Of a stretch of DNA of 64,000 nucleotides, positions 36,798-58,983 are shown one piece after another. Numbering within the stretch: position 1 is the first letter of the stretch; each line of letters begins with the position of its first letter. Both the position numbers and the translations under genes were made by a program. Below the pieces are notes generated by a model, which was not told the DNA's origin, made no database searches, and saw nothing but the letters and a program-made list of their open reading frames with translations. The stretch spans positions 186,001 to 250,000 of the forward strand of contig NZ_BCTJ01000001.1 of NCBI RefSeq assembly GCF_001571225.1, written 5' to 3'. The stretch is from Hydrogenophaga palleronii NBRC 102513 (lineage in GTDB: Bacteria; Pseudomonadota; Gammaproteobacteria; Burkholderiales; Burkholderiaceae_C).

Positions 36798-36899
36798 CTC
36801 CAGGGACGGCGAGGGTCCGGCTCCGCCAGCCCCAGCCGTCGTCCCCCTCCCGCCGCAGGCGAGAGAGGGGGAAGGCGCCACAGGCGCCACAGGGGGTGG
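36798..36899 (-). repeat. Structured 3' intergenic repeat, copy 1 (after cysK)
   Basis: Reads leftward, starting 3 nt after the cysK stop. On the minus strand it starts CACCCCCTG, has a CCCCCTCTC...GGAGGGGG pairing and then a nested stem: outer GACGGC/GCCGTC (36835-36840 with 36805-36810), inner CTGGC-GGA-GCCGG (36825-36829 with 36817-36821, one U-G pair). It ends in CTGGAG. Closest to the copy at 56.3 kb. Confidence 0.75.
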
Positions 36900-36901
36900 C
36901 G

Positions 36902-37825
36902 TCAAGCCTGCGGCAGGAAGCCCTCCACCGACAGGTAACGTTCGCCGGTGTCGTAGTTGAAGCCCAGCACCACCGCGTTGGCCGGCAGCTCGGGCAGTTT
37001 CTGCGCGATGGCCGCCAGCGTGGCGCCGGACGAAATGCCGACCAGCAGGCCTTCTTCGCGTGCGCTGCGGCGCGCCATCTCGCGCGCCGGCTCGGCCTCG
37101 ACCTGGATCACGCCGTCGAGCAGGCTGGTGTCGAGGTTGTTCGGGACGAAGCCCGCGCCGATGCCCTGGATCGGGTGGGGCGAGGGCTGGCCGCCGGAGA
37201 TGACGGGCGAGGCCGTGGGCTCGACCGCGAACACCTTGAGCCTGGGCCAGCGCGCCTTGAGCACACGCGCCACGCCGGTGATGTGGCCGCCGGTGCCCAC
37301 GCCGGTGATGATGGCGTCGAGGCCCTCGGGGAAATCGGCGGCGATCTCTTCCGCCGTGGTGCGCACGTGCACCTCCACGTTGGCCGGGTTGTTGAACTGC
37401 TGCGGCATCCAGGCACCGGGGGTGCTGGCGACGATTTCTTCGGCACGCGCAATCGAGCCCTTCATGCCTTTCTCGCGCGGCGTGAGGTCGAAGCTGGCGC
37501 CGTAGGCCAGCATCAGGCGGCGGCGCTCGACCGACATGCTGTCGGGCATCACCAGCACCAGCTTGTACCCCTTGACCGCGGCCACCATGGCCAGGCCGAT
37601 GCCGGTGTTGCCCGAGGTCGGCTCGACGATGGTGCCGCCGGGCTTGAGCGCACCCGAGCGCTCGGCGTCTTCCACCATGGACAGCGCGATGCGGTCCTTG
37701 ATCGAGCCACCCGGGTTGCTGCGCTCGGACTTGATCCAGACCTGCTGGCTGGCACCGGCGAACAGGCGTTGCAGGCGGATATGCGGCGTGCCGCCGATGG
37801 TCTCGAGTACGTTCCGGGCTTTCAT
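36902..37825 (-). CDS. cysK: Cysteine synthase A (O-acetylserine sulfhydrylase)
   Basis: 307-aa PLP enzyme making cysteine from O-acetylserine and sulfide. The Schiff-base lysine is K43 in NPGGSIKDR, the substrate loop is TSGNTGIG (from T70), and the phosphate-binding loop is [10 protein letters not shown]. The motif set GGTPHIRL...[14 protein letters not shown] points to CysK rather than CysM or cystathionine synthase. The start ATG at 37825 overlaps the msrB stop by 4 bp, so it is translationally coupled to msrB. Confidence 0.93.
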
Positions 37826-38241
37826 GGTGTGTCCTTCGTCGGTTGCAGTTCCAGGGAGGCGGAGTTCATGCAGTAGCGCAGGCCGGTGGGCGTGGGGCCG
37901 TCCTCGAACACGTGGCCCAGGTGCGCACCGCACTGGCTGCACACGGTTTCCACGCGCACCATGCCGTGGCTGCGGTCGGTGATTTCGGTGATGGCGCCGG
38001 GCACGGCTTGCGAGAAGCTGGGCCAGCCGCAGCCGGCGTCGAACTTGGTGTGCGAGTCGAACAAGGTGTTGCCGCAGCAGATGCAGTGGTAGCTGCCGTC
38101 GGCCCAGACCTGCTCGTACTTGCCGGTGTAGGGGCGCTCGGTGTGGGCGTGGCGCGTGACGTCAAACGCGCGTGGCTCGGCGCCCTTGGCGGCCAGCACG
38201 TCGCGCCATTCGGCTTCGGATTTCTGCACGGGATAGGTCAT
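37822..38241 (-). CDS. msrB: Peptide-methionine (R)-S-oxide reductase
   Basis: 139-aa repair enzyme for R-methionine sulfoxide. Catalytic C124 is in RYCMNSASL, the zinc-binding pairs are C53/C56 (CICC) and C101/C104 (CSQC), and C71 in DAGCGWPSF is a possible resolving cysteine. AGGAGACCCC before the ATG is a strong ribosome site. It has no signal peptide, so it is cytoplasmic. Coupled to cysK by a 4-bp overlap, joining methionine repair to cysteine supply. Confidence 0.95.
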
Positions 38242-38276
38242 GGGGTCTCCTTCAAAGGTTCAGATGCCGGCGCACC

Positions 38277-38356
38277 CTCCAGAGGTGCCGCGGAACCGGC
38301 TTCGCCGGGCCGCAGGCGTCACCCAGGAGGGGGGGCGCGTGCAGCGCGGCGGGGTG
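38277..38356 (-). repeat. Structured 3' intergenic repeat, copy 2 (after selO)
   Basis: Leftward orientation, beginning 2 nt after the selO stop. It contains CACCCCGCCGCGCTG, a C-rich block and the nested stem: CGG/CCG plus CCGGC-loop-GCCGG (38296-38300 with 38304-38308). The outer stem GGTG...CACC is bulged in this copy. It ends in ACCTCTGGAG. Confidence 0.75.
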
Positions 38357-38358
38357 AC

Positions 38359-57282: not shown

Positions 57283-57289
57283 TCGCTCC

Positions 57290-57718
57290 ATGGAGTTTTC
57301 CGTCCGCATCCCTTTCGTCGAGCTGCTCGGCTTCGAACTGCACCGGTTCGAAGGCGGGGAGGCGGAACTGCGCTTCAACCCGGGGCCTGACCACCTGAAC
57401 TCCTTCGACGTGGTGCACGGCGGCGCCAGCATGACCCTGCTCGACGTGGTCATGGCGCATGCCGCGCGCTCCACCGAGCCCAGCATGGGCGCGGTCACCA
57501 TCGAGATGAAAACCAGCTTCATGCGCGCCGCCAAAGGGTCTTTGCGGGCCACCGGCCGCACACTGCACCGTACCGCCACAATGGTCTTCACCGAAGGCCA
57601 GATTGTTGATGCCGACGGCAAGCTCTGCGCGCACGCCACCGGCACCTTCAAGCTCATGCCGCGCCTGGCCACCGGCCCGGGCAGCACACAAGCCCTCAAC
57701 CGCATCCGGACCGACTGA
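57290..57718 (+). CDS. PaaI/YbgC-like hotdog thioesterase
   Basis: 142-aa hotdog protein with NSFDVVHGGASMTLLDVVMAHAA carrying the HGG motif and acidic residue, and MKTSFMRAAKGSLRATGR. The ATG at 57290 is the family-like start; GGAGG lies within the end of the SDR gene 12 nt upstream. Second thioesterase of the cluster. Confidence 0.87.
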   Translation: MEFSVRIPFVELLGFELHRFEGGEAELRFNPGPDHLNSFDVVHGGASMTLLDVVMAHAARSTEPSMGAVTIEMKTSFMRAAKGSLRATGRTLHRTATMVFTEGQIVDADGKLCAHATGTFKLMPRLATGPGSTQALNRIRTD

Positions 57719-57735
57719 CTGACTGAGACATCAAA

Positions 57736-57819
57736 GCCCCCTGCGTCGCTTCGCGCCTTCCCCCCGCCGGAGGGACGGGACCTGCGGCCTGGCAGAGCCA
57801 GTTCCGCGGTCTCGCTGGA
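57736..57819 (+). repeat. Structured 3' intergenic repeat, copy 6 (after the second thioesterase)
   Basis: Starts 17 nt after the stop. Outer stem GGACC (57778-57782) with GGTCT (57808-57812, one G-U), CGG with CCG, inner CTGGC-AGA-GCCAG (57789-57801). Both stems differ from the other copies by paired changes, the best covariation evidence in the set. Confidence 0.8.
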
Positions 57820-57886
57820 CGCAGCCTCGCATCCCTACACGCACACTGCGTGCCACCCCGTAACCTGATTGACCCGGAGAAACACC

Positions 57887-58903
57887 ATGCCCGCCAACCA
57901 ACAAATCCTTCTCGACAACCGCCCTGACGGCGAAGCCACCGTCAACAACTTCAAGCTGGTCACCACCCAGACGCCCGCGCTGGCCGATGGCCAGGTGCTG
58001 GTGCGCCACCATTTCCTGAGCCTGGACCCGTACATGCGCGGCCGCATGAACGACAGCAAGAGCTACGCGGCCTCGCAGCCGCTGGGCGAAGTCATGATCG
58101 GCGGCACCGTGGGCGAGGTGGCCGAATCAAAGAACCCCAAGTTCCAGCCCGGCGACAAGGTCGTGGGCATGGGCGGCTGGCAGGAATACAGCGTGGTCGA
58201 TGCCGCCCAACCCGGCGCGCTGCGCAAGGTCGACACCACGCACGTGCCGCTGTCGCACTACCTGGGCGCCGTCGGCATGCCCGGCGTGACCGCCTGGTAC
58301 GGCCTGGTGAAGCTCATCAACCCCAAGGCCGGCGACACCGTGGTGGTGAGCGCCGCCACCGGTGCGGTGGGCAGCGCCTTCGGCGCGCTGGCCAAGGCCC
58401 GTGGCTGCCGCGCGGTCGGCATTGCCGGCGGCCCGGAGAAGTGCAAGTACGCGGTGGAAGAGCTGGGCTTCGACGCCTGCGTCGACTACAAGCTGCACAA
58501 GGACGCGCACTCGCTGTCCAAGGCGCTCAAGGAAGCCTGCCCCGATGGCATCGACGGCTACTTTGAAAACGTCGGCGGCATGGTGCTCGACGCCGTGCTG
58601 CTGCGCATGAACGCCTTCGGCCGCATCGCGGTCTGCGGCATGATCGCCGGCTACGACGGCAAGCCGATGCCGCTGGCCAACCCGGCGCTGCTGCTGGTCA
58701 ACCGCATCCGCCTGGAAGGTTTCATCATCGCCGAGCACATGGAAGTGTGGCCCGAAGCCCTGACCGAACTCGGCCAGCTGGTGGGCAGCGGCAAGCTGCG
58801 CCCGCGCGAGAGCGTGGCGCAAGGCATTGCGGCAGCGCCCGAGGCTTTCCTGGGCCTGCTCAAAGGCAAGAACTTCGGCAAGCAGCTGGTCAAGCTGATC
58901 TAA
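57887..58903 (+). CDS. MDR-family NADP-dependent oxidoreductase (curcumin/alkenal reductase-like)
   Basis: 338-aa zinc-free medium-chain reductase. N-terminal LVRHHFLSLDPYMRGRM is the leukotriene-B4-reductase-like signature. The NADP region VVSAATGAVGSAFGALAKARGCRAVGIAGG has the AxxGxxG pattern, and YFENVGG follows. It reduces alpha,beta-unsaturated carbonyls in this family. GGAGA 6 nt before the ATG at 57887. Confidence 0.92.
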   Translation: MPANQQILLDNRPDGEATVNNFKLVTTQTPALADGQVLVRHHFLSLDPYMRGRMNDSKSYAASQPLGEVMIGGTVGEVAESKNPKFQPGDKVVGMGGWQEYSVVDAAQPGALRKVDTTHVPLSHYLGAVGMPGVTAWYGLVKLINPKAGDTVVVSAATGAVGSAFGALAKARGCRAVGIAGGPEKCKYAVEELGFDACVDYKLHKDAHSLSKALKEACPDGIDGYFENVGGMVLDAVLLRMNAFGRIAVCGMIAGYDGKPMPLANPALLLVNRIRLEGFIIAEHMEVWPEALTELGQLVGSGKLRPRESVAQGIAAAPEAFLGLLKGKNFGKQLVKLI

Positions 58904-58983
58904 CCCCCGCGCCGCCTTCGGCGTCACCCCTTCGGGGGGCGCCACTGGCGGCCCGGCGGAGCTGGTTCCGCGGTGGCTCTGGA
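58904..58983 (+). repeat. Structured 3' intergenic repeat, copy 7 (after the MDR gene)
   Basis: Starts immediately after the stop: hairpin CGCCG-CCTT-CGGCG, then CCCC-TTCG-GGGG, then outer stem GCCAC (58941-58945) with GTGGC (58973-58977), CGG with CCG, inner CCGGC-GGA-GCTGG (58953-58965, one G-U). It ends CTCTGGA. Compared with copy 3 the outer stem has a compensated change. Confidence 0.82.

Follow-up and report, generated by a model that had tools for sequence, protein, structure and literature searches.

What are the short structured sequences that stand behind seven genes in a 64 kb stretch of the Hydrogenophaga palleronii NBRC 102513 genome, and what does their position just after stop codons mean? 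This stretch (hereafter the window, i.e., the whole 64 kb analysed) is part of contig 1 in a draft assembly of 4.84 Mb. The initial annotation had suggested that the seven sequences are copies of a 3'-end element of messenger RNA (mRNA). It had noted compensating base changes, a strict sense placement held to argue against a spreading repeat, and the lack of a named family. We find this interpretation to be partly supported. The element occurs in at least 177 places of the genome, mostly in sense behind stop codons and with a conserved structure, but it is also a repeat that was probably catalogued before as an unexplained one.

Structure and abundance of the element

The element is about 80 nt long. 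Its consensus runs from a CACCCCC leader through hairpin 1, of which there are several types, a CCCC/GGGG hairpin 2, which carries an extra inserted hairpin in some copies, and hairpin 3 to CTCTGGA and a weakly conserved tail of ~18 nt (judged on the 134 of 166 copies that end in CTGG). Hairpin 3 is made of a variable outer stem, a middle stem of three pairs, and an inner CCGGC-NNN-GCCGG hairpin. A covariance model built from the seven window copies (R1) picks out no others in the window: they score 64.8-87.1 bits, and the best match after them has 18.9 bits. A second model (R2), built from 71 copies, five of them from the window, also recovers all seven.

Compensating base changes had been proposed for this structure, and they are abundant. 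When the 71 copies were aligned on sequence alone, with the structure predicted from that same alignment, pairing held in 95.7% of the cells. Doubly changed cells numbered 136, against 37 +/- 5 for shuffles and 25-36 for slid registers. A larger alignment of 150 copies, taken from 155 matches of 100 sources and fitted to R2, has 96.9% pairing cells and 295 doubly changed ones against 72 +/- 6, a value reached by 0 of 500 shuffles. Changes on both sides occur in all six pairs of the outer stem, and pairing is kept through them. The strong structural evidence is comparative and does not come from the folding of single sequences, where window copies only modestly beat shuffles (z of -0.6 to -2.9). 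The minimum-energy folds of the copies at 50053, 56299, and 57736 deviate from the shared layout in their 5' half, and that of the copy at 58904 is without hairpin 3. A helix closing the CCCC leader on a GGGG tail appears in the folds of the copies at 36798 and 46003, and we do not claim it as a feature.

Searching the whole genome with R1 gave at least 147 matches at E <0.001 among the 150 candidates scored. The genome set comprises 118 stretches around R1 matches and pattern matches; it yielded 151 + 27 matches, 150 + 27 of them aligned, and at least 177 distinct places. The count of "at least seven" copies thus holds for the window and is far too low for the genome. Eleven of the 177 places begin at the end of a stretch and were excluded, which left 166 uncut copies for the placement counts below. 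The true number is probably above 177, since scoring stopped at 150 candidates and contigs can end inside a copy: among 21 contig ends chosen for a nearby match, 16 start within one (by eye). The repeat seems to break the assembly and copies seem to be undercounted as a result. Draft contigs that start or end inside a copy include those at L093, L101, L126, L134, L141, L145, L154, and L157, and nine such breaks fall in the inner hairpin of hairpin 3.

Position behind stop codons

We called genes with our own codon-usage caller, trained on the window and also applied to the other genomes. The upstream neighbour is in sense for 147 of the 166 copies: 117 of these lie between same-direction genes, 29 have a facing gene, and one has no downstream call. 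The remaining copies are antisense to both neighbours (8), between divergent genes (3), or inside gene calls (6); one more is antisense and has no downstream call, and another lacks an upstream call. Hence, copies are far from being equally frequent in antisense or within genes, and those that are antisense or in a gene mostly have no long coding sense frame ending just upstream.

The distance to the sense stop is 0-15 nt in 137 of the 166 copies and 0-18 nt in 142. When both neighbours were called, 141 of 157 copies were in sense and at most 18 nt from the stop. Random placement in the same gaps gave a mean of 33.7 and a maximum of 50 such copies in 2000 runs, and a mean of 51.6 and a maximum of 73 when the orientation was kept. 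The 29 copies between convergent genes are informative, because 28 of them start 0-12 nt from the sense stop (the other at -32), whereas the facing gene is 0-219 nt away: the element sits at the stop of its own gene and not at that of the facing one. Five pairs of copies lie tail-to-tail; three of these pairs are between convergent genes, with each copy in sense to its own gene. These results bear out the strict sense placement first proposed from the window, and the relatives described below agree with them. Downstream sense starts lie within 126 nt in 110 of 120 cases, and the frames beyond the stop, considered with readthrough in mind, have a median of 61 codons. Upstream genes have a slightly higher coding score than downstream ones (0.388, n=140, versus 0.363, n=114; p 0.003), a difference too weak to serve as a proxy of expression. 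A larger gap appears relative to all other calls, which is an unfair comparison as these include weak calls.

The seven copies of the window and their host genes

All seven copies were re-found in place and on the expected strands, and our independent gene calls put each of them (7/7) 0-17 nt after a same-sense stop. Two lie on the minus strand. The copy at 36798..36899 (68.9 bits with R1, as for the scores below) follows a cysteine synthase gene (stop 36902) and is of the long-insert type, with an extra GCCTGCGGC hairpin within the CCCC/GGGG hairpin. The copy at 38277..38356 (68.8 bits) follows a SelO gene (stop 38359); its outer stem is imperfect, and the other outer stems are as initially listed. 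The five others are on the plus strand. The copy at 46003..46083 (83.4 bits) lies behind a gene for a periplasmic substrate-binding protein (stop 45996; Pfam Peripla_BP_6, of the branched-chain amino-acid type below the NCBIfam cut-off), with another same-sense gene downstream. That at 50053..50133 (85.7 bits) lies between an ABC transporter ATPase gene (stop 50045) and a FadB/FadJ-like gene. A second long-insert copy, at 56299..56398 (64.8 bits), stands behind a Dabb-domain gene (stop 56288), and the copy at 57736..57819 (76.3 bits), whose inner stem is CTGGC/GCCAG, behind a gene of the thioesterase superfamily (stop 57718). Finally, the copy at 58904..58983 (87.1 bits) abuts the stop codon (58903) of a gene encoding a zinc-dehydrogenase-type oxidoreductase.

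Distribution in other genomes

The FadB locus of the window has its best named matches in Hydrogenophaga and other Comamonadaceae. In relatives, 80 FadB loci contain 64 matches, and 62 of these are in sense and 1-30 nt from a stop; the two exceptions, one in sense at 443 nt and one antisense, are both weak Polaromonas matches. Copies are present in 14 of 16 named genomes, with at least 150 in Hydrogenophaga taeniospiralis, 63 in H. borbori, 54 in H. intermedia, 79 in a Curvibacter metagenome-assembled genome (MAG), 37 in Polaromonas sp. CF318, 28 in Variovorax boronicumulans, and none in two Limnohabitans; the named genome of Pseudorhodoferax also has copies. The Polaromonas loci L174, L175, L180, L218, and L237 hold copies that are related but distinct and score lower with the model; in several of them, a CACTGCGTGT-like stretch stands where hairpin 1 would be. 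Nine matches were found on plasmids. Among the eight inspected, six are in sense behind a stop (deposited annotation or our own calls) and one is antisense to both neighbours. The copy on plasmid RPME01 of Methylibium petroleiphilum (L303 941-1960) lies antisense inside an annotated transposase coding sequence, whose sole Pfam match is HTH_Tnp_1 at residues 12-61; outside this part, the call may be spurious.

Beyond these relatives, at least six of 200 genomes of the order, including our own, have matches at E up to 1e-4 under strict filters (best 23 candidates per genome). A second bacterial family (f4) has matches in at least 59 of 268 genomes and 7 of 43 genera at E up to 1e-6 (best 17 candidates per genome). 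In one of its genomes, G098, we counted 127 matches at E up to 0.001. Many of them are arranged head-to-tail in arrays, such as the units at 735324 and 735410 and at 1649322, 1649409, and 1649496, which are 5 nt apart. Other arrays in G098 and in a further genome, G202, have longer spacers, and copies are mostly 86-136 nt apart. We surveyed 40 stretches of these two genomes at well-scoring sites, which gave 41 arrays: 34 are in sense and one is inside a gene call. The sense arrays begin 0-23 nt behind a stop in 23 cases; of the other 11, examined by eye, ten have a truncated copy or a 5' stub within ~10 nt of the stop, and the last (L268) is preceded by a terminator-like hairpin. Head-to-tail arrays were not seen in the window's own genome. 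The placement rule recurs in relatives, and less cleanly in family f4.

Gain, loss, and mosaic history

The fadB site gives a view of sites with and without the element. Among 25 Hydrogenophaga-like loci, the genes are 22-46 nt apart (stop and start codons counted) in 13 element-free loci and 137-169 nt apart in the five that carry the element; seven further element-free loci were omitted because the pattern missed the first start. These five are the only element-bearing sites among 80 orthologues. Their outer stems are related (GCTCCC/GGGAGC, once GCACCC/GGGCGC), and from their sequences the copies look like one insertion that was shared by descent and altered in pairs. No clear target-site duplication was seen by eye at this site.

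Copies at orthologous sites are 82.6% identical (170 pairs), against 76.8% for different sites within and 75.4% between genomes. By eye, the outer stem of orthologous copies is mostly typical of the site and still paired, while hairpin 1 switches type. Together, these features point to copies that persist by vertical descent and are partly exchanged; recombination seems to swap 5' halves between resident copies. At L162, L164, L182, L266, and L286, a short 5' stub is followed by a second leader, often with another stop-like triplet; such stubs look like a one-sided replacement of the 5' half. Composite copies occur at L254, L256, L278, L286, L288, and L290 (G098/G202), where a copy truncated near the tip of hairpin 3 is followed by a GGGAAGGCC-like, purine-rich leader and then a full copy.

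At the thiolase site (orthologue of window 52518-53693), elements are found in L161, L164, L167, L168, L182, and L183. By eye, the thioesterase gene of the window (53706-54146) is missing in all six element-bearing species and an acyl-CoA dehydrogenase gene follows. The element-free L179 is also without the thioesterase gene. Gene loss or exchange at elements is possible.

Considering the presence and absence at orthologous sites, the arrays of f4, and the matches in at least 59 of its 268 genomes, the element is also a spreading repeat. The view that its strict placement argues against this does not hold.

Relation to known repeats

None of the 4227 Rfam families matches the window above its gathering threshold, in line with the initial annotation, and none matches the region of the copies (36700-59050) at E up to 5. 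Two exact-pattern scans of a viral collection gave no match, a weak negative given how strict exact patterns are. Very similar repeats have been printed elsewhere, and the lack of a named family is not borne out as it stands, this comparison being one of descriptions. The closest is the Beta-proteobacterial repeat element (BRE; Hot et al. 2011, PMC3110155), for which the available text gives no function. There, BRE is 75-91 bp long in Bordetella, with a GC content of 63.7-78.9%, mostly intergenic, and found in tandem units with none or few nt between them, at 1-29 copies per genome with a 70% identity cut-off. Its hosts are Bordetella and Comamonadaceae including Polaromonas, Rhodoferax, Acidovorax, and Delftia (PMC3110155). 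The same text reports an ~80-nt RNA on Northern blots over one copy, lists the transcript of the type copy as opposite to both neighbouring genes, and notes that three Bordetella species, but not B. avium, have copies in the interval between lexA and another gene (PMC3110155).

Our element resembles BRE in its cores (mostly 76-89 nt, GC 0.65-0.83) and in the tandem units of G098 (5 nt apart). Copies occur in named genomes of Polaromonas, Variovorax, Pseudorhodoferax, Curvibacter, and Hydrogenophaga, and the published BRE distribution suggests that f4 may be Alcaligenaceae. Long-insert copies of up to 106 nt exceed the BRE range, and the available BRE account has neither a stop-codon or sense rule nor a structure (PMC3110155). 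The lexA loci of five genomes, examined as a test of identity with BRE, hold no copy; B. avium also lacks one in print. Length, GC content, and tandem habit agree, and so, it seems, does the published distribution; the element is probably BRE, although the two were compared by description and not by sequence. Bor-1, described in 2008, may be the same repeat or could be another one, to judge from its partial description: it is 117 bp long with 196 matches, 92 of them complete, in B. bronchiseptica, and 93 bp with 128 matches, 78 complete, in B. pertussis (PMC2267715). Size, copy number, intergenic position, an RNAz-supported structure, and a genus shared with BRE speak for the likeness (PMC2267715). 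In the available text on BRE and Bor-1 (PMC3110155, PMC2267715) we found neither the sense and stop rule nor the covariation or the stems typical of a site, and none of these appears in the titles and abstract openings of the open-licence PMC papers listed.

The element also differs from REPs. Typical REPs have a RAYT partner. Of 13 copy-rich genomes, 9 lack this Y1 transposase (PF01797), and 4 of 9 genomes for which no copies are listed have it; we thus rejected RAYT as a general partner, and the element does not fit a REP with a partner transposase. Our own genome has a single Y1_Tnp (RAYT-like) gene (C7:79849-80145; L009 1132-1983), whose 3.3 kb locus contains no copy by pattern search. The published excerpts give typical REPs as 20-40 bp, many with a tetranucleotide tag, and mention tagless REP-like families in Bordetellae (PMC3733652). 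The element starts with CACCCCC and ends with CTCTGGA; no GTAG/CGTC tag was seen by eye, and no pattern search for one was made. It is like the REP/PU of E. coli in being made of intergenic hairpins, some of them close behind stop codons, and unlike them in its ~80 nt, three hairpins, sense orientation, and lack of a consistent RAYT.

A possible role at the stop codon

We tentatively prefer, with slightly less than even confidence, to read the element as a dispersed, structured RNA of the 3' untranslated region (UTR) that is placed at the stop codon and acts on termination and mRNA stability. It would be transcribed with the upstream gene and act on that gene as RNA, in the manner of E. coli REP hairpins. 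Its fold would stand at the leading edge of the terminating ribosome, where it could slow termination or release, and might also block 3'-to-5' decay. The element would in this way set how much product the upstream gene yields, in many cases relative to the gene that follows. New copies would arise by some copying process, and resident ones would swap 5' halves. Liang and co-workers are said to have made the original study of how the distance of a REP affects translation. According to PMC12306157 (citing its ref. 17), E. coli REPs lower translation only when less than 16 nt from a stop, and they are reported to stall ribosomes. Within this distance lie 137 of the 166 copies of our element, against 446 of 4072 (or 260 of 496) E. 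coli REPs given as stop-proximal or translation-linked in the same text, so that the element keeps to the distance rule more strictly than REPs themselves.

Several observations weigh against such a functional reading. Twelve of the 166 copies have an antisense upstream neighbour and six are inside gene calls; six of the 41 f4 arrays are antisense to both neighbours. The same gene ends lack the element in many species, and orthologous sites vary in its presence. Some copies of G202 that look near-identical by eye, and hence young, already obey the stop rule, and therefore fit targeted insertion as well as selection. Moreover, covariation does not prove that the selected molecule is RNA rather than DNA. 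We dropped the balance of G:U and A:C cells as a proof of this, because few columns carry it: the surplus of G:U comes mainly from two columns in our own genome (111 versus 42 cells) and again from two in 65 copies of G098 and G202 (107 versus 0), and the four most covarying pairs of the outer stem have 8 G:U and 13 A:C cells.

A serious rival to the functional reading is a selfish or passive mobile repeat whose insertion is targeted behind stops in one orientation, host function being incidental; we regard this as possible, though somewhat less likely. The cues might for example be stop triplets, which are AT-rich, or single strands exposed where genes end, and paired changes could reflect the need of a mobile hairpin for pairing, or template-switch correction between its arms. 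The variation between species fits this scheme, as do the arrays mostly 86-136 nt apart and near-identical copies of G098 and G202, the composites cut near the tip of hairpin 3, the 5' stubs followed by a second leader, and the few wobble intermediates in the outer stem (the 8 G:U and 13 A:C cells above). It is harder to reconcile with the lack of a candidate enzyme, given the uneven occurrence of Y1_Tnp, with the lack of a clear target-site duplication at the fadB site, and the persistence of orthologous copies with paired stems.

Transcription termination, intrinsic or related to Rho, would account for the 3' position, the strong GC-rich hairpins, and the C-rich leader, yet we find it improbable. 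Of the 166 copies, 3 have a T-run of at least 4 within the next 15 nt (trimming set the 3' end too early in a few), and given how rare U-tracts are, intrinsic termination is unlikely; the plain intrinsic terminator was rejected, and with it this part of the initial 3'-end proposal. The 117 copies between same-direction genes and the close downstream starts also argue against a terminator. So do two of four element-bearing liv substrate-binding sites inspected (L161, L187), where by eye the element precedes a separate terminator-like hairpin; as relatives without the element have this hairpin too, the element adds to an existing one there. A DNA recombination site at gene ends, akin to the attC of integrons, is very improbable. 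attC sites are single-stranded hairpins of conserved structure and variable sequence, in sense to the gene in front, which matches the position and orientation of our element, and the thioesterase gene missing in all six element-bearing species points the same way. Against this, the element-free L179 also lacks that gene, and of 13 copy-rich genomes one has an integron integrase above the cut-off; lower-scoring matches are seen in every one of the 13 and in 14 of 14 control genomes, and we rejected the integrase as a general feature of copy-rich genomes.

Implications

In its boldest form, which we consider unlikely, the functional reading makes the element a portable gene-end RNA module: a repeat with no known transposase, copied exactly behind stops in sense across Burkholderiales and retained by selection as a tunable brake on translation termination. 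If true, a single type of 3'-end control element would be common to more than 100 unrelated genes. Should the element act at the stop codon, its more than 100 natural copies in one genome, together with natural empty sites in sister species, would allow a cleaner test than E. coli REPs of how a structure behind the stop alters termination and mRNA lifetime. If insertion is targeted instead, a mobile process would recognise gene ends without a known enzyme. The repeat may also account for breaks between contigs in draft genomes from this group. On either account of its placement, a repeat so far unexplained, and probably the one known from Bordetella, would gain a testable rule.

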